From Armatimonadota bacterium (GTDB lineage: Bacteria; Armatimonadota; Zipacnadia; Zipacnadales; FEN-943): a DNA stretch of 33,046 bases. Position 1 is the stretch's first letter, and every line of letters starts with the position of its first letter. Shown in pieces: positions 14,142 to 30,438 of the stretch. Both the position numbers and the translations under genes were made by a program. The stretch is taken from assembly GCA_003170595.1 (NCBI GenBank), contig PMZA01000125.1:1-33046 (forward strand). Direction: 5' to 3'. The notes under the pieces are model-generated. The model was not told where the DNA came from. It made no database searches and saw only the letters and a list, made by a program, of their open reading frames with translations.

Positions 14142-15050
14142 TTGCGACGTAACGTAACCGTTTTGGTGCTGTGCTTAGCGCTTGTCATCATCTCCTCAGC
14201 CCTCTTCGCCGACAGCTTCGTGCTCACGGGCAACTATCTCAAGGTCGGCGTCAGCAACTCCGGCGCCTTGATCAATGACGATGCTTCCGTCGGCATCCAG
14301 TACGACCCCACCGGCGGTGGCAGCTTCGGCGCTTTCGACTACCTCACCCCTGGCATTCCCTGCGAGTATTGGTCCATCGGCATCGATTACGGTGCCGATC
14401 CCTCCGTGTCGTCCGGCAATGCGACTCTTTTCTCGGACTTCGGACTCACGAACGGCAACCCGCTCAACATGGTCACCACTAACACGAGCGTCGGCTCGAC
14501 GCTATCCGCCAAGAGCGTGGGGACCTGGGATGCCTTCGACATCGGTGTCACTCAAGACCTCTGGTTCGACGCGAACGAATCCACCATCCACTTCCACACG
14601 GCCATCACCAACAACAACCTCGACAGCCTGCTACTTGGCGCCTTCGCTCGCGGCGCCGACCCCGACCAGGACTCCTACATCTCCGGCCCCCAGACCAACA
14701 ACTCCATCCCCGCCGCCAACGAGGTCATGGCCGTCGGCCCGTCCAGCGGTTACTCGATCACACTCATCGACGACCAGGGCCAGGGCGGCGTCCCCTCCAT
14801 CCATGCGCAATGGACATCCGACAACCCCGACCCCTTCTTCTTCTACAACACCCCGCCCAACGACGGCAATGGCGACAACTCCATCAACATGGCGTGGGGC
14901 GGCACCATCGATGCTGGCCAGACGGTCGATATCTACTATAGCTACGAACTCGGCGGTCCGAAGAACCCCAGCGTCCCTGAGCCCTGCACCATGAGTCTCC
15001 TCGGGCTCTCGCTCTGTGGTCTCCTCGGCCTTCGCCGCCGGCGCAAGTAG
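14142..15050 (+). CDS. PEP-CTERM sorted surface/extracellular protein
   Basis: A 302-aa exported protein. The N-terminal signal peptide runs RRNVTVLVLCLALVIISSA and ends near ALFA. The mature part is Asn/Gly/Ser-rich and beta-like, starting FVLTGNYLKVGVSNSGA. The C-terminus is a sorting signal: VPEP, then a hydrophobic span (CTMSLLGLSLCGLLGL), then RRRRK. PEP-CTERM proteins are cleaved and sorted by exosortase, often for exopolysaccharide-rich surfaces; no exosortase is in this window. The start is TTG at 14142 with GGGAGG 8 nt upstream; no ATG is available before the signal peptide. A strong hairpin follows the stop codon. The bulk domain was not recognised. Confidence 0.9.
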   Translation: MRRNVTVLVLCLALVIISSALFADSFVLTGNYLKVGVSNSGALINDDASVGIQYDPTGGGSFGAFDYLTPGIPCEYWSIGIDYGADPSVSSGNATLFSDFGLTNGNPLNMVTTNTSVGSTLSAKSVGTWDAFDIGVTQDLWFDANESTIHFHTAITNNNLDSLLLGAFARGADPDQDSYISGPQTNNSIPAANEVMAVGPSSGYSITLIDDQGQGGVPSIHAQWTSDNPDPFFFYNTPPNDGNGDNSINMAWGGTIDAGQTVDIYYSYELGGPKNPSVPEPCTMSLLGLSLCGLLGLRRRRK

Positions 15051-18264: not shown

Positions 18265-18401
18265 GAATCCTTCCCTCCGATTTGCTGGGACCCGAATCCC
18301 TAGGCCCGAACGATGATGGCGGGAACAGTCCTTGCGGCCACGGTATCCCTGCCGGCTCAGGGAGTTTCTGTGACTTCGAGCTGCGACCCCTTCGGATTCT
18401 A

Positions 18402-18430
18402 TTGGTCACCGCTCGCCGCACGTATATAAT
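18402..18430 (+). promoter_or_regulatory. Sigma-70-type promoter for the VWA/DUF4159 operon
   Basis: TTGGTC (18402-18407), a 17-bp spacer and a consensus TATAAT (18425-18430). The leader would be about 20 nt to the ATG at 18456, just enough for the GAGGTG ribosome site. Confidence 0.65.
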
Positions 18431-18455
18431 GCACCTTGCTAGCGAGGTGCGCCAC

Positions 18456-20555
18456 ATGTTTCTTGGAAAGCTGGGGATGAGTTTCCTCGTGCTAATATTG
18501 GGCGGAGCGGCTGTGTGGTTCGGGCTGCGCCGTCTAGGCGATCTTGCGCCCCAACGACGCGCTGGCCTGGCAGCCTTCCGGGGCCTCACCGTCGTCCTCG
18601 TCGCCGCCGCGGTCTTCAACCCCGAGTGGATGCTCACCTCGACGGCCTCACGCCTCGCGCCGGTGATCGTCGTCGGCGATCATAGCGCGAGCATGGATCT
18701 CCCGGACATGGACCGCGGCTCCACCCGTCGCAGCTCCGTCGAGGCGAAGGTCCTCGTCAAGGACGGTCTCCTCGATCGCCTCGCCTCCAGGCGCCGCGTT
18801 GAGGCCTACGGCTTCGCCGCTCAGCTTCTGCCCCTCGCCGGCAGGGCCCTCCCGGCCGCCGTCGACAAGACCGACCTGCGCGTGGCCCTCCGCCAGCTTC
18901 ACGCGGAGGCCTCCCGTGCCGGCGCGCAGGCCATCGTCCTCCTCACCGATGGCGTCGACACCGAGGGCCTCACCGCCGCCGAGGCCGCCCGGCTCGCGAA
19001 GGGACTCCCGCCCATCTTCGCCGTCCAGCTAGGCGGCCGCGCGCCTCTCTTCAACCGCGCGATCCTGGGCCTCCGCGCTCCGAAGCAGGCGCCCGCGGGC
19101 AAGAACTTCGACTGCACCGTCTCCGCGTCCTCGCCTACCGAAGCCGGCACGTCCCTCGACCTCACCTGGGCCGCCTCCGATGGCCAGCATGGCGACGTCG
19201 CCCTCAAGCTCGGCGCCGACGGCACCGGCGCGGTGACCTTTCCCATCGCCGCCGGCCGTCCCAGCAAGCTCCGGGTCATCGTCGGCTTCGGCGTCAAACA
19301 GGGCGAGTACTCCGCCGAGGACAACGTCCGCGCCGCCATGGTGGACATCGTCGCTGGCGACCGCCACCTCGTCTATCTCGACTCCGCGCCGCGTCCCGAA
19401 CTCGCCTCCCTCCGCCGCCTCCTCGATCGCCTCACGGAGGTCAAGCTCAGCCTCGGCGTCCGTAAGGCCACCGGCGAATGGTCGCAGGAGCTGCCCGCCC
19501 TCAAGCCGATCGACAAGCCCTGGATGATCGACAGCTTCCTCGCCGCCACCATCTACATGCTCGGGGATCTCAACGCCGACACGATGACGAGGTCGTCGTG
19601 GGATGGCCTGGATCGCCGCGTCGCCGGGGGAGAGGCAGGGCTCATCGTCCTCGGCGGCCCTGAGTCGGTGAAGACTCCCAACCGCCTCCGCGACCGCCTG
19701 CCCGCCGACATCACTGCCTATCAGCAGCGGGCCGTGTCGATCGCCGCGCCGCCCGGCTCCTCTCCACTCTACGATCCTGGTATCCGCTGGTCGGAGCTGC
19801 CCACGCTCGCCGGGGTCAACACCCTCGGCCCGCTCACCCAGGGCGCCATCGTCGCCCTGCGCGCGACCGACGGCTCGCCTCTCATCGTTCTGCGCGACGA
19901 TGCGATACGCTCGGCCGTCGTCGCCACCGACTCTCTCGGCCGCCTCGCCTTCAGCTCCTCAGCCAACGACGCCAGCCGCGAGGCCTACAACCATATCTGG
20001 CTGAAGCTTCTGGCGTGGATGCTGCGACCGCGCCCGCCGCGACCGATCACGCTCATGTGCGACCACCTCATCGCCCTGGCCGGCGAGCCGATCAGCATCG
20101 AGGGCGACGCCACCGCCGCGGTCGACTCGGCGACCCTCGAGTTCGCCGGGCCCACACCCGCGCAGCGGCCCATGGAGCGGCGCGGCCCCGGCCTCTTCCG
20201 CGTCGACCTGCCCGGCCTGCCCGCGGGACGCTACGCCCTGCTCGCGAGAGCCAAAGCTGCCGGCGGCGCCGAGCTTGGGCAGGACCGGCTGCGCATCGAC
20301 GTCGTCGCGCAGAGCCGCGAGTGGCGCCATCCCGCCCCCAACGCGCCCATGCTCCAGGCCATCGCCGGCGCCACCGGGGGCAAGGTCCTCGCCTGGGATG
20401 ACGTCGACCGCGTGCCTGAGTACCTCCCGACCGCCGTCCAACCCGAGGTCGCCACCCACCGCTTCGCCCCGGCGCGGGGTATCCTTGCGGCGATGCTGCT
20501 TCTCGCGCTGCTCATGGGCGACTGGATCGTCCGCCGCCGCTGGGGTCTCCTATGA
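18456..20555 (+). CDS. Membrane-anchored VWA-domain protein with glutamine-amidotransferase-like region
   Basis: A 699-aa membrane protein. Two N-terminal helices (LGMSFLVLILGGAAVWFGL and FRGLTVVLVAAAVF) precede a von Willebrand A domain. Its metal site is intact: DHSAS (Asp75, Ser77, Ser79) and LLTDGVD (Asp165). A beta-sandwich-like region follows, then at about 360-530 a segment like the class I amidotransferase-type domain of large VWA proteins (SFLAATIYMLGDLNADTM, GLIVLGGPESV). A final helix (GILAAMLLLALLMGDWIV) ends in basic residues. The start is ATG 18456 with GAGGTG 6 nt upstream and a promoter just before; upstream ATGs at 18429 and 18282 fall in or before the promoter. The downstream DUF4159 gene overlaps by 4 nt. 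Such pairs occur in BatA/MoxR-like gene neighbourhoods; function unknown. Confidence 0.85.
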   Translation: MFLGKLGMSFLVLILGGAAVWFGLRRLGDLAPQRRAGLAAFRGLTVVLVAAAVFNPEWMLTSTASRLAPVIVVGDHSASMDLPDMDRGSTRRSSVEAKVLVKDGLLDRLASRRRVEAYGFAAQLLPLAGRALPAAVDKTDLRVALRQLHAEASRAGAQAIVLLTDGVDTEGLTAAEAARLAKGLPPIFAVQLGGRAPLFNRAILGLRAPKQAPAGKNFDCTVSASSPTEAGTSLDLTWAASDGQHGDVALKLGADGTGAVTFPIAAGRPSKLRVIVGFGVKQGEYSAEDNVRAAMVDIVAGDRHLVYLDSAPRPELASLRRLLDRLTEVKLSLGVRKATGEWSQELPALKPIDKPWMIDSFLAATIYMLGDLNADTMTRSSWDGLDRRVAGGEAGLIVLGGPESVKTPNRLRDRLPADITAYQQRAVSIAAPPGSSPLYDPGIRWSELPTLAGVNTLGPLTQGAIVALRATDGSPLIVLRDDAIRSAVVATDSLGRLAFSSSANDASREAYNHIWLKLLAWMLRPRPPRPITLMCDHLIALAGEPISIEGDATAAVDSATLEFAGPTPAQRPMERRGPGLFRVDLPGLPAGRYALLARAKAAGGAELGQDRLRIDVVAQSREWRHPAPNAPMLQAIAGATGGKVLAWDDVDRVPEYLPTAVQPEVATHRFAPARGILAAMLLLALLMGDWIVRRRWGLL

Positions 20556-21238
20556 GTCTCCGTCCGCGCGGCGTTGGAGTGAACGCTCGTTCACTCGCCA
20601 CATATGCCGTGCTGATGCTGGCCCTACTGCCCCACGCCTCAGCCGGTCAGGTGAAGGCCGCGCGGCTCAAGTACGGTGGCGGCGGCGACTGGTATGCCAA
20701 CCCGACCTCCGTCCCGCGCCTTCTCGCCGAGGTCCGCAAGCGCACGACCATCGACATCGCGCCCGAGCCCGATATCGTCGAAGCCTCCTCCCCGCGGCTC
20801 TACGACTACGCGATCCTCTTCGTCACGGGTCACGGCAATATCGTCTTCACTCCCGCCGAGCGCCGCAACCTCCGCGCCTACCTCGACGCTGGGGGCTTCC
20901 TCCATGTGGATGACAACTACGGCCTCGACGAGTTCTTCCGCCCCGAGGTCAAGCAGCTCTTCCCCGGACGCCCGCTCGTCGAGCTACCCTTTTCGCACGC
21001 GATCTATCATTCGTTCTACGCCTTCCCCGGCGGGCTGCCCAAGATTCACGAGCATCACGGCGGCCCGCCCCACGGCTACGCGATCGTCCACGAGGGCCGC
21101 GTGGAGATGTTCTATTCCTACAACACCGACCTCAGCGACGGCTGGGAGGCACCCGACGTCCACAAGGACCCGGCCGACGTCCGCGAACAAGCCTTCAAGA
21201 TGGGCGTCAATATAGTCGTCTACGCCCTTACACACTGA
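20552..21238 (+). CDS. Exported DUF4159 protein
   Basis: A 228-aa protein matching DUF4159. A signal peptide or anchor (ARSLATYAVLMLALLPHASAG) is followed by the domain. Conserved blocks are LKYGGGGDWYANP, YDYAILFVTGHGNIVFTPAE, LRAYLDAGGFLHVDDNYGLD, LPFSHAIYHSFYAFPGGLPK and YSYNTDLSDGWE, a Rossmann-like amidotransferase-related fold. The ATG overlaps the stop codon of the VWA gene (ATGA), so they are coupled and probably act together at the membrane. DUF4159 proteins are usually encoded near MoxR ATPase/DUF58/VWA genes; here MoxR and DUF58 are missing. Biochemical role unknown. Confidence 0.88.
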   Translation: MSLRPRGVGVNARSLATYAVLMLALLPHASAGQVKAARLKYGGGGDWYANPTSVPRLLAEVRKRTTIDIAPEPDIVEASSPRLYDYAILFVTGHGNIVFTPAERRNLRAYLDAGGFLHVDDNYGLDEFFRPEVKQLFPGRPLVELPFSHAIYHSFYAFPGGLPKIHEHHGGPPHGYAIVHEGRVEMFYSYNTDLSDGWEAPDVHKDPADVREQAFKMGVNIVVYALTH

Positions 21239-26192: not shown

Positions 26193-26231
26193 TGGCGCAA
26201 ATCTAGCTCTGCTTGTCTCGGAGGATAATTG

Positions 26232-27488
26232 ATGAACTACGATGTCACCGACCTGACCCTTGCCGACGCTGGCCTGCTCCGCATCGAGTGGGCTGAGCAG
26301 CAGATGCCCGTCCTGCGCCAGATCCGCGAGCGCTTCGCGGCCGAGAAGCCCCTCGCGGGCCATCGCATCGCCGCCTGCCTCCACGTCACCACAGAGACGG
26401 CCAACCTCATCCGCACCCTCACCGCCGGTGGCGCCCACGTCCGCCTCTGCGCGAGCAATCCCCTCAGCACCCAGGACGACTGCGCCGCCGCCATGGTCCA
26501 GCACCTCGGCGAGGAGGTCTACGCCATCCACGGCGAGGATCGCGACTCGTACTACAAGCACATCAACGCCGTCCTCGACTTCGCGCCTACCATCACCATC
26601 GACGACGGCGCCGACCTCATCAACACCCTCCACACTGACCGCCAGGACCTCATCGCCGGTATCCGCGCGGGCATGGAAGAGACGACCACCGGCGTCATCC
26701 GCCTGCGCGCCATGGCCGCCGCCGGCGCCCTCCGGTACCCGGTCATCGCCGTCAACGACGCCATGACCAAGCACCTCTTCGACAACCGCTATGGCACCGG
26801 TCAGAGCACCATCGACGGCATCCTCCGCGCCACCAACATCCTCATCGCCGGACGCGTCTTCGTCGTCGCGGGGTATGGCATGTGCGGCAGGGGCGTAGCC
26901 AGCCGCGCTCGCGGCATGGGCGCCAAGGTCCTCGTCTGCGAGGTCGACGCCCTCCGCGCCCTCGAGGCCACCATGGACGGCTTCGACGTCATGCCCATGG
27001 GCCAGGCCGCCTCCCTCGGCGACATCTTCGTCACCGTCACCGGCGACACGAGCATCCTCCGCCCCGAGCACTTCGCCGTGATGAAGGACGGCGCGGTCCT
27101 CGCCAACTCCGGCCACTTCGACGTCGAGGTGGACGTCCGCGGCCTCGCCGCCATGACCACCGCCATCCGCCGCATCCGCGCGGCCTGCGACGAATACCTG
27201 CTCACCGACGGCCGCCGCCTTTACCTTCTCGGCGAGGGCCGCCTGGTGAATCTTGCCGCCGCCGAGGGGCATCCGGCAGCGGTCATGGACATGAGCTTCG
27301 CCAACCAGGCGCTCTGCTCCGAGTGGGTCGCGACGATGAAGGAGCCGCTCTCGCTCGGCGTGCACAACGTGCCGACGGCGCTCGACGAGGATGTCGCGCG
27401 GCTGAAGCTCGCGGCGATGGGCGTCGCCATCGACACCCTAACGCCCGAGCAGTCGAAGTACCTGTCCGCCTGGGAACAAGGCACCTAG
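26232..27488 (+). CDS. ahcY: S-adenosylhomocysteine hydrolase, short form
   Basis: Splits S-adenosyl-L-homocysteine into adenosine and homocysteine, keeping methyl transfer running. 418 aa. Conserved substrate residues are visible: [11 protein letters not shown] (His51), [14 protein letters not shown], Glu150 in EETTTGV, and [19 protein letters not shown] (Lys180, Asp184). The NAD loop is [11 protein letters not shown] (Gly214, 216, 219) and [10 protein letters not shown] follows. It lacks the roughly 40-residue insert and the KPDHYRY tail of the common bacterial/eukaryotic form and ends [16 protein letters not shown], as in archaeal and Thermotoga-type enzymes. ATG at 26232 has GGAGG 7 nt upstream; a TTG just before is not needed. 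It follows the GHMP kinase by 39 nt, possibly in the same operon. Confidence 0.95.
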
Positions 27489-27506
27489 CTGCACACGCAC
27501 CACCTC

Positions 27507-27641
27507 GTCATCCTGAGAGCGACGCTTTCTGTCGCCGAAGGATCTAGTTTTCGCTGGTCATCGCCCTGCCACTGAGAGGGGCGAATCGTTGGCGAAAACT
27601 ATCTCCTTCGGTCGGCAGAAACCCCCTTCCTCAGGATGACA
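27507..27641. repeat. Fold-back repeat, TGTCATCCTGAGG family, copy 3
   Basis: Left end CGTCATCCTGAGAGCGACG at 27506-27524, right end CCTCAGGATGACA ending at 27641. Inner arms GCCGAAGGATCTAGTTTTCG and CGAAAACTATCTCCTTCGG differ from copies 1 and 2 by a few bases changed on both sides, so pairing is largely kept. It lies between the S-adenosylhomocysteine hydrolase and glycosyltransferase genes. Confidence 0.8.
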
Positions 27642-27711
27642 GTCTTGAGGGTCGGGGGGCTGTTGAGACCGGCCCGTTCTTCGGCTATCCGTCGGAGGCT
27701 TTCGCAAACCC

Positions 27712-29499
27712 ATGTCGCTTGAACTCCTGCTGCGCGCGGGCCTTTGGGCTGCTCTCGGCGCCGCCGTCTACGGCCTGATCCTCGCCGTCCCCGCCGTGGG
27801 CCGAATGGCGGCCGGCGGCCGCGTGTTCCGTGCCGACCGCCGTGGCCAGGCCCTCGCCGTTGGGCTCATGCTCGCCGCCCTTCAGTGCGGCGGCGACGTC
27901 GGCTTCGACCGCCCCACCCTCATCCTCGCGCTCATCCTCTTCGTCTGGGCTTTCGCCCTCCGCCTCACCGACCTCGTCGAGCGTCTCCGCATCCTCAGGC
28001 CGCTCGCCGTCGCCGTCCTCCTTCTGCTCTGGGCGCTGTTCATCACCGAGCCGCCGCTCGCCAGCCTGAAGGTCCCCTTCGCGGCTGAGGTTGCGGCGCT
28101 GGGCCTTGTCGGCTGGGTCGTATCGTGGGTATGGCTCGTGCTCTTCGGCTCACTCTTCGCCCGCGCGGGCACGACCGTCGGCGTCGCCCCCGGTCTGTCG
28201 ATCATCTCGGGCGTCACGTTCCTTATCATTGGCGCCCTCCGCCCCGATCTCATGCCGCCGCACGGCTTCGCCTTCGCCGCCGCCCTCACGGGCGCCGGCC
28301 TCGGCCTCGCACCACTGGAGCGCTACCTCTTCCACCGCTCGTCCACGGCGGGCGCGTATGCCGTCGGTGTCGCCGTCGGATGGGTGGCCGCCGCGTGCCT
28401 GGTGAAGAACACGGCCCTCCTCGCCCTCCTCCTGCCGCTGCTGGTTTTGGGCATGCCTCTCTTCGCCGCCGTCGCACCGGCCGCCGCCCAGCGCCGCCGC
28501 CGGATCATCGAGCGCCCCGGCCATCTGCATGAGGTCCTCCTCTCGCAGGGCTACTCGTCGCGCCAGGTTTCGGGCGTCGAGCTTGTGGGTGCCAGCTATC
28601 TCGCCCTCCTCGCCGTGCTCCTGGTGACGATCGTTGAGGCCAACTGGGCGATCAAGCTCGCCGTCGTCGTGGTATGGGTCCTCGCCGGCCTCCTCCTCGG
28701 CTACGTGGCCGTCCGCCTCCTCCCCCGCGCCGTCGCCCATCACGGTCCGGCCGAGCTTCGCATCTTTGGCCTTCGCCTCCACGCCCTGACCATGGCTGAG
28801 GCGATGGAGCTTGCCCGCGGCTGGCTGCGCTCGGGCGAGCCGCACTACATCGTCACCTGCGACGCCTCGGGCCTCGTCCGCGCCCGCGAGGATGAGGAGT
28901 TTCGCCAGATCGTCAACCACGCCGACCTCGTCACTGCCGACGGCGCAGGGGTGGTCCTCGCGGCCAAGCTTCTCGGCCTACCCGTCGAGGTCCGCGTCTC
29001 TGGCTGCGACATGGTCGAGAATCTCTGCCGCCTTGCCGCCGAGGAGGGTCAGTCGGTCTTCTTCCTCGGCGCCGAGCCCGGCGTGGCCGAGGAGGCCGCT
29101 GCCCGCATCGCCGAGCGCACCCCCGGCCTTCAGGTCGCCGGCGTCCGCGATGGTTACTTCAAGCCCGACGAGGAGCCTGCCGTCGTCGCCAAGATCGCGG
29201 CCCTCTGCCCGGGCGTGCTTTTCGTCGCCCTGGGGCAGCCGCGCCAGGAGCGTTTCCTCCGCGATCATCTCGCCCAGATCGGCGCCCGCGTGGCCATCGG
29301 CATCGGCGGCAGCCTCGACGTCCTCCCCGGCCGCAAGCGCCGCGCGCCCGTGTGGATGCAGCGCACCGGCCTCGAGTGGGCCTACCGCGTGTGCAAGGAA
29401 CCGACCCGCCTGCCCCGCCTGAAGGCTCTGCCCAGGGTCGTCTTCATGGCCTTCGGCGAGCTTCTGCGCGGCCCATCCGCGCCTGATGATGAGGAGTGA
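27712..29499 (+). CDS. Fusion of degenerate WecA/TagO-like membrane domain with WecG/TagA/CpsF glycosyltransferase
   Basis: A 595-aa two-part protein. Residues 1-340 are polytopic membrane sequence (about 10 helices) that follows the WecA/MraY-family order, including PGHLHEVLLSQGYSSRQ (His271), which matches the family's HLHHRLL..G.S.RQ loop. The catalytic acids are gone: TD for the DD pair, FARAGTTVGVA where NLIDGLDGL is expected, and HRSSTAGA where GDAGS is expected. Residues 347-580 are a complete GT26 domain: TCDASGLVRARED, LVTADGAGVV (likely base Asp410), VRVSGCDMVE, FLGAEPGVAE, GQPRQERF and GIGGSLDVLPGRKRRAP. GT26 enzymes add ManNAc(A)-type sugars to undecaprenyl-linked GlcNAc made by WecA/TagO. 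ATG at 27712 gives a normal hydrophobic start. The role of the membrane half as anchor or lipid-substrate holder is inferred. Confidence 0.88.
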   Translation: MSLELLLRAGLWAALGAAVYGLILAVPAVGRMAAGGRVFRADRRGQALAVGLMLAALQCGGDVGFDRPTLILALILFVWAFALRLTDLVERLRILRPLAVAVLLLLWALFITEPPLASLKVPFAAEVAALGLVGWVVSWVWLVLFGSLFARAGTTVGVAPGLSIISGVTFLIIGALRPDLMPPHGFAFAAALTGAGLGLAPLERYLFHRSSTAGAYAVGVAVGWVAAACLVKNTALLALLLPLLVLGMPLFAAVAPAAAQRRRRIIERPGHLHEVLLSQGYSSRQVSGVELVGASYLALLAVLLVTIVEANWAIKLAVVVVWVLAGLLLGYVAVRLLPRAVAHHGPAELRIFGLRLHALTMAEAMELARGWLRSGEPHYIVTCDASGLVRAREDEEFRQIVNHADLVTADGAGVVLAAKLLGLPVEVRVSGCDMVENLCRLAAEEGQSVFFLGAEPGVAEEAAARIAERTPGLQVAGVRDGYFKPDEEPAVVAKIAALCPGVLFVALGQPRQERFLRDHLAQIGARVAIGIGGSLDVLPGRKRRAPVWMQRTGLEWAYRVCKEPTRLPRLKALPRVVFMAFGELLRGPSAPDDEE

Positions 29500-29505
29500 C
29501 CAACC

Positions 29506-30438
29506 ATAGCCCAGCAAGTTCTGATTGTCGGCAGCATGGCTCTCGACACGATCGAGACCCCCTTCGGCCGTCGCGATGACGCCGTCGGCGGAGCAGGCAC
29601 CTACGCCGGCCTGGCGGCATCCATCCTCGCGCCGGTCCGCCTCGTCGGCGTCGTGGGCGACGACTTCCCGCGCGCGGCGATGGACGACCTCGCCTCCCGC
29701 GGCGTCGATCTCGCCGGCGTCGAGACCATCCCGGGTGGCAAGTCCTTCCGCTGGGGCGGCGTCTATCGCTTCGACATGAACACCCGCGACACGCTCTTCA
29801 CCGAGCTGAACGTCTTCGCGGACTTCAACCCCCAGATCCCGGCCGATTGGCGCGAGACGCCCTTCGTGTTCCTCGCGAACATCCAGCCCCAGCTCCAGCT
29901 TTCCGTCCTCGACCAGGTCGCCGGCGCGCTTTTCGTCGTCGCCGACACGATGAACTTCTGGATCGAGGGCGAGCGCGAGGCCCTCGACGCCCTCCTCGCC
30001 CGCATCGATCTGCTGGTCATCAACGATGCCGAACTTCGCCAGCTTTCCGGCGAGCACAACCTCGCCCTCGGCGCGCGGAAGGTCCTGGCGATGGGCCCGC
30101 GCTTCCTCGTCGTGAAGAAGGGCGAGTACGGCGCGGCGCTGGTGTGGGAGGGCGGGCATTTCACGCTCCCGGCCCTGCCGCTGCCCGACGTTGTGGACCC
30201 CACGGGCGCGGGCGACAGCTTCGCCGGCGGCCTCATCGGCATGTTGGCGTGGCTCGACGACACGGGTGAGGACGCCCTGCGGGCGGCGTTGGCAGCGGGC
30301 ACGGCCACGGCGTCGCTATGCGTGCAGGATTTCGGGGTCGAGGCGTTGAAGAGGCTGACGACGGCGGAGGTCTGCGACCGCTACGAGGCGCTGCGGGCGA
30401 TGACCCTTTTCCCGCCCTGCCCGCTCATCGAATCCTGA
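29506..30438 (+). CDS. PfkB-family sugar/nucleoside kinase with apparent ATA start
   Basis: A 310-aa ribokinase-family kinase. The first strand VLIVGSMALDTIETPFG is the usual PfkB opening. Other marks: DAVGGAGTYAGLAAS (substrate/Gly-rich), VGDDFPRAAMDDL, VINDAELRQLSGE, FLVVKKGEYGAAL and the ATP/catalytic motif DPTGAGDSFAGG with the base Asp. The upstream stop codon in this frame is at 29497, and between it and the first ATG (29536) no ATG, GTG or TTG exists. ATG 29536 would cut off the first strand. ATA at 29506 stands 9 nt after GAGGAG, exactly where a start codon is expected, so initiation at ATA, a point mutation or a sequence error is likely. It follows the glycosyltransferase gene directly, probably in the same operon. 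Confidence 0.8.
   Translation: MAQQVLIVGSMALDTIETPFGRRDDAVGGAGTYAGLAASILAPVRLVGVVGDDFPRAAMDDLASRGVDLAGVETIPGGKSFRWGGVYRFDMNTRDTLFTELNVFADFNPQIPADWRETPFVFLANIQPQLQLSVLDQVAGALFVVADTMNFWIEGEREALDALLARIDLLVINDAELRQLSGEHNLALGARKVLAMGPRFLVVKKGEYGAALVWEGGHFTLPALPLPDVVDPTGAGDSFAGGLIGMLAWLDDTGEDALRAALAAGTATASLCVQDFGVEALKRLTTAEVCDRYEALRAMTLFPPCPLIES

Follow-up and report, generated by a model that had tools for sequence, protein, structure and literature searches.

Little is settled about the way in which glycosyltransferases locate very long polyprenyl lipids and keep hold of them within the membrane. One gene in the window (the whole stretch of 33,046 nucleotides analysed here) raises a form of this question: what is the use of joining a TagA-type glycosyltransferase to a membrane domain that resembles TagO/WecA and has lost the residues for its own chemistry? 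The gene occupies one uninterrupted frame of 595 amino acids, from the ATG at 27712 to the stop at 29499.

26229..27488, + strand: S-adenosylhomocysteine hydrolase (AHCY), upstream neighbour, conserved across the phylum
27712..29499, + strand: fusion gene, pseudo-PNPT membrane domain and TagA/WecG glycosyltransferase, 595 aa
29536..30438, + strand: PfkB-family kinase, downstream neighbour, conserved across the phylum

A frameshift or assembly artefact behind the fusion is excluded, because 57 sequences of the sampled set, in as many genomes, carry the same fusion. The components are known families and their combination appears to be new. Elsewhere in the window, the ORF at 14142-15050 ends in a C-terminal PEP-CTERM sorting motif (Pfam E 7e-5), and a long ORF without a Pfam match (18282-20555) lies directly upstream of a DUF4159 gene (20552-21238).

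The membrane half adopts the PNPT fold in structural models.

27712..28749, + strand: N-terminal membrane domain of PNPT fold that lacks the catalytic set (residues 1-346; 11 transmembrane helices; AF2, Foldseek)

Its helices TM1 to TM6 (residues 3-33, 44-63, 67-88, 90-110, 133-152 and 158-176) and TM7 to TM11 (183-206, 213-230, 235-260, 283-306 and 312-336) come in the PNPT order, with a beta hairpin separating TM4 from TM5. When the N-terminal half was modelled alone with AF2 (residues 1-348, pLDDT 88.9, pTM 0.88) and searched with Foldseek, the first 34 PDB matches were all MraY, then DPAGT1, with a sharp drop in score afterwards. The model matches MraY with TM-scores of 0.54-0.69 over about 330 columns, and no other fold matched convincingly. 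The earlier note had proposed that this domain follows the WecA order, and the fold match and the order of the 11 helices bear this out.

The evidence from sequence searches depends on relatives. The window N-half scored no Pfam or NCBIfam family in a single-sequence search, so the PF00953 search suggested by the earlier note is empty for the window protein itself. This family was found in the N-halves of 4 of 26 relatives (best 4e-7), and TIGR02380 WecA in 2 of 26; since relatives match PNPT families, the empty search is no evidence against PNPT. Furthermore, the window N-half matches the WecA/TagO-like paralogue of its own genome (E 7.7e-6), and a profile of the fusion family reaches PNPT enzymes of Actinomycetota, Bacillota, Kiritimatiellota and Rokubacteria (E 1e-16 to 1e-35). 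The N-half profile found no match among PDB sequences, and the fold search was needed to link the domain to MraY and DPAGT1.

The motifs that carry PNPT catalysis are broken. They were counted in one alignment of 55 fusion N-domains and 21 TagO/WecA-type enzymes, which places them in the window protein as follows.

27967..27972, + strand: remnant of the DD pair, residues 86-87, T-D (LTD)
28147..28194, + strand: loop C position of NxxNxxDGxDG (the uridine pocket in MraY), reading GSLFARAGTTVGVAPG with neither Asp
28339..28368, + strand: loop D position of GDxG (an Mg ligand in MraY), reading SSTAGAYAVG without the Asp
28513..28554, + strand: loop E, RPGHLHEVLLSQGY, the HxHH loop with its third His replaced by Glu

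The claim that the DD, DGLDG and GDAGS motifs are all replaced holds for the first Asp of the pair, for DGxDG (which reads TTVGVA) and for GDxG (which reads STAG); the second Asp of the pair, D87, is kept. Across the fusions, the first Asp of the DD pair is gone in nearly all and the second is present in 37 of 55. Both DGxDG aspartates occur together in none of the 55, and the GDxG Asp is absent in almost all. A lone Asp stands at one DGxDG/GDxG position in three sequences (L060, L064 and L068). The HxHH loop reads HLHE in the window protein and retains two of its three histidines; across the family, the third is Glu or Asp in 48/55 and the second is present in 45/55. No homologue has the full set of aspartates, and the single sequence with a whole DD pair (L063) has lost the other two aspartate motifs. 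Inactivation confined to the lineage of the window was therefore rejected, the catalytic set being broken in 55/55. The predicted N-domain is a PNPT homologue by fold, and we do not class it as a PNPT enzyme because the DD pair reads TD and there is no Asp at DGxDG or GDxG.

Information content per region was used to compare what the dead domains and the active enzymes have kept; the sets held 25 dead and 16 active representatives, and each was made non-redundant below 45% identity. In active enzymes, conservation relative to the mean of the set is highest in loops C and D. By site-permutation p-values that are nominal (11 regions, picked after a first look, with sites treated as independent), the dead set has lost relative conservation in the DD region (p 0.009), loop C (p 0.0002) and loop D (p<0.0002), and has gained it in the GxxKNTA motif and TM9 (both p<0.0002), TM10 (p 0.004), the periplasmic hairpin (p 0.010) and TM8 (p 0.048). 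Loop E is above average in both sets and no more conserved in the dead than in the active one, and the change in TM5, which walls the groove on one side, is not significant.

28396..28416, + strand: GxxKNTA motif (K232), strongest relative conservation gain in the dead clade
28420..28485, + strand: TM9 with conserved P242 and P249 (alignment; PMC6606608)

K232 is present in 54/55 fusions and in 19/21 active TagO-type enzymes. It is one of the near-invariant residues of the N-domain, with W141, G219, P242, P249 and G280, in a domain whose mean identity among the 25 representatives is 29%. Against its nearest relative, the window protein is 53% identical in the N-domain and 77% in TagA, indicating that the N-domain evolves faster. 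In MraY, loops C and D are the uridine and Mg sites (PMC6606608, PMC5039524), and the proposed groove for C55-P is built mainly by TM5 and TM9b (PMC6606608). Abandonment of the nucleotide-sugar site with retention of the lipid side would be expected to give this conservation pattern. K232 and the periplasmic hairpin lie on the opposite membrane face, and conservation there may reflect folding or contacts with partners.

The second half of the protein is a TagA.

28750..29469, + strand: TagA/WecG (GT26) domain, residues 347-586, with PF03808 at 28921-29418
28939..28941, + strand: Asp410, equivalent to the catalytic base Asp65 of Thermoanaerobacter italicus TagA (gapless alignment; role from PMC6493773)
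29347..29469, + strand: C-terminal appendage, residues 546-586, with R559, R566 and R569 (alignment to T. italicus TagA; PMC6493773)

Residues 404-569 match PF03808 (WecG/TagA/CpsF) with E 5e-61 over profile positions 1-166 of 168. Modelled as part of the whole protein (AF2, 28 sequences, pLDDT 86.4, pTM 0.80), the C-terminal half has the GT-E fold and aligns with crystal structures of TagA at TM-scores of 0.93-0.95 (target-normalised). Residues 349-577 align with residues 4-232 of T. italicus TagA (7mpk) without a gap (phmmer), so the active-site residues map one to one. Thr37, Asp65, Arg83, Tyr137, Gln167 and Glu168 are kept as T382, D410, R428, Y482, Q512 and E513, and the appendage arginines Arg214, Arg221 and Arg224 as R559, R566 and R569; Asn39 is replaced by D384. 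The roles of these active-site and appendage residues in T. italicus TagA are given in PMC6493773. With the mapped residues retained, the TagA part looks active, and the intact motifs ascribed to it by the earlier note are indeed there. Loop charges fit a cytosolic position of TagA after TM11.

The source of the window belongs to Armatimonadota, as do all named relatives with the fusion (Zipacnadia, WS1, Abditibacteriales and others), and N-half matches occur in 50 of the 61 relatives searched. PF03808 is present in 192 of 201 sampled Armatimonadota genomes, with frames of both ~600 aa (fused) and ~250-300 aa (stand-alone). Both forms occupy the same slot: in many families the order is AHCY, TagA alone and PfkB, and elsewhere the fusion stands between AHCY and PfkB. 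This AHCY-TagA-PfkB order is widespread in the phylum (window 26229-30438 and loci L108, L113, L117-L119, L124 and L126). We know of nothing that would tie the recycling of S-adenosylhomocysteine functionally to TagA.

In a tree with 32 other PNPTs, the pseudo-PNPTs fall into one clade (SH-aLRT 100), beside active TagO/WecA-type enzymes, and several separate origins of the dead domain were thus rejected. On free TagA trees the fusion label requires 2-3 changes; the AU test does not reject fused TagA as a single clade (p 0.43). One early gain of the fusion with a few losses is the simplest history on these unrooted trees. In the genome of the window, which is 84.5% complete, the fusion is the only PF03808 gene detected. 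The same genome encodes two separate PNPTs with catalytic motifs, a WecA/TagO-like protein with all motifs (C386) and an MraY-like protein (C410), so that the fusion does coexist with an apparently active WecA.

Two further sets of PNPT sequences were noted. Another genome of the class has, a short way upstream of its fusion gene, a separate stand-alone PNPT-like ORF with the degenerate motifs AHH, NDLSG and SRGG (L144, G041:C62:38500-40200). The WecA/TagO-like proteins L046, L049, L050, L051 and L140 (from G056, G060, G052, G057 and G046) form a clade (SH-aLRT 98) with intact DD, DGxDG and HxHH, in which MGT replaces MGD and NxxN has become KxxD, the two changes co-occurring in 5/5. Together these could represent a rearranged metal site.

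Outside Armatimonadota, a family-profile search of 300 Bacillota and 297 Actinomycetota genomes found many TagA and no PNPT-TagA fusion among the matches listed; scoring was limited to a few top candidates in each genome under a strict E-value, and rare fusions may have gone unseen. Other phyla were covered by a contig pattern scan only. Long-frame TagA proteins outside Armatimonadota were considered as PNPT fusions and rejected, as 0 of the 20 loci opened had a PNPT. Several other TagA architectures were seen by eye. An actinomycetotal TagA (L175, G729) follows a multi-helix protein resembling a flippase-type membrane protein, and the TagA proteins L071 (G180) and L072 (G173) carry a C-terminal extension of ~230 aa resembling two STAS-type domains.

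We propose that a gene of the TagO/WecA type was joined in frame ahead of a resident TagA early in the history of Armatimonadota, and that its product then lost its chemistry and became a non-catalytic module of 11 helices. The last of these, TM11, would deliver TagA to the cytosolic face of the membrane. The first lipid, C55-PP-HexNAc, would most likely come from a separate PNPT with intact motifs. The groove of the pseudo-PNPT (TM5, TM8, TM9 and loop E) may keep or position the polyprenyl chain, and the tethered TagA would then add the second sugar, independently of the reversible membrane binding of ordinary TagA; lipid binding, presentation and the identity of the sugar are conjectural parts of this scheme. 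We favour, with a confidence close to even, a pseudo-PNPT that is a non-catalytic module both holding TagA at the membrane and holding or positioning its lipid substrate. Its lipid-holding part is preferred because the nucleotide and Mg loops have decayed and the TM8/TM9/loop E side is retained. The lipid-substrate holder of the earlier note is thereby plausible and in part borne out: the fold, the broken aspartate motifs, the intact TagA and the separate PNPT genes are supported by computation, and the holder role itself is suggested by the conservation pattern. Counting against it are TM5 and loop E, which have not gained conservation, the conserved K232 and periplasmic hairpin on the opposite membrane face, the fast evolution of the N-domain and the many Armatimonadota that manage with a stand-alone TagA. 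More broadly, we put forward tentatively, at slightly under an even chance, that in the many families of this phylum the PNPT pseudoenzyme serves as a covalent polyprenyl-lipid receptor that presents the first lipid intermediate to TagA.

The decayed PNPT could instead merely keep TagA at the membrane, with its lipid groove unused. TagA needs the membrane for activity (PMC6493773), it is placed on the cytosolic side after TM11, and the rapid change of the N-domain would suit so simple a role. However, an 11-helix fold with near-invariant residues, maintained at a mean identity of 29%, exceeds what an anchor needs, and the membrane-binding C-terminal appendage of TagA is itself intact; we regard a plain anchor as unlikely. 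Somewhat more doubtful still is a docking subunit, in which the dead domain dimerises with the active TagO/WecA-type enzyme of the genome and brings TagA to the source of its substrate. MraY dimerises and C55-P stabilises the dimer (PMC9046198), PNPT genes above the Pfam cut-off occur in 60 of the 61 genomes searched, and other families include inactive paralogues that form pairs with active ones, such as the AdoMetDC prozyme (PMC5201418), but the active PNPT gene is not adjacent to the fusion in the window genome. It is very improbable that the N-domain retains phosphosugar-transferase activity through a rearranged catalytic site: the retained second Asp and the acidic residue of loop E mean that some polar residues persist at the old catalytic site, but nothing conserved stands in for the missing Mg ligand and the two missing DGxDG acids, and loops C and D lack the high conservation seen in active enzymes. 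Anchoring, docking and lipid positioning can overlap.

If the lipid-holding module is the right reading, the fusion ties step two of a lipid-linked glycan pathway to a retired version of the enzyme that performs step one. The phylum offers a natural experiment for telling lipid recognition apart from catalysis, with the chemistry lost, the groove side kept and the second-step enzyme attached. In the literature searched we found no description of a PNPT pseudoenzyme, which the N-domain appears to be, or of a PNPT-TagA fusion.

The N-domain shares with TagO, WecA and MraY (PF00953) the fold, helix count, loop order, K-motif, proline-kinked TM9 and the HxH of loop E, and differs from them in the loss of the Mg-binding and catalytic acids, a shorter first cytosolic loop and the fused TagA. 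With TagA/TarA (GT26, WecG/TagA/CpsF) the fusion has the catalytic domain, active-site residues and C-terminal arginine appendage in common. Unlike T. italicus TagA, it bears an 11-TM domain in front and is predicted to be an integral membrane protein, whereas the ordinary TagA is peripheral and is activated once its C-terminal appendage meets the membrane (PMC6493773). The stand-alone TagA of Armatimonadota occupies the same slot and belongs to the same TagA subfamily, but has no PNPT domain. A further parallel is found in Actinomycetota (L156-L159) and Bacillota (L162-L164), where TagA likewise follows an envelope-polymer protein; here the partner looks, by eye, like a CsaB-type pyruvyl transferase rather than a membrane PNPT. 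These fusions fit the link between TagA-made lipids and pyruvylated wall polymers (PMC6030368).
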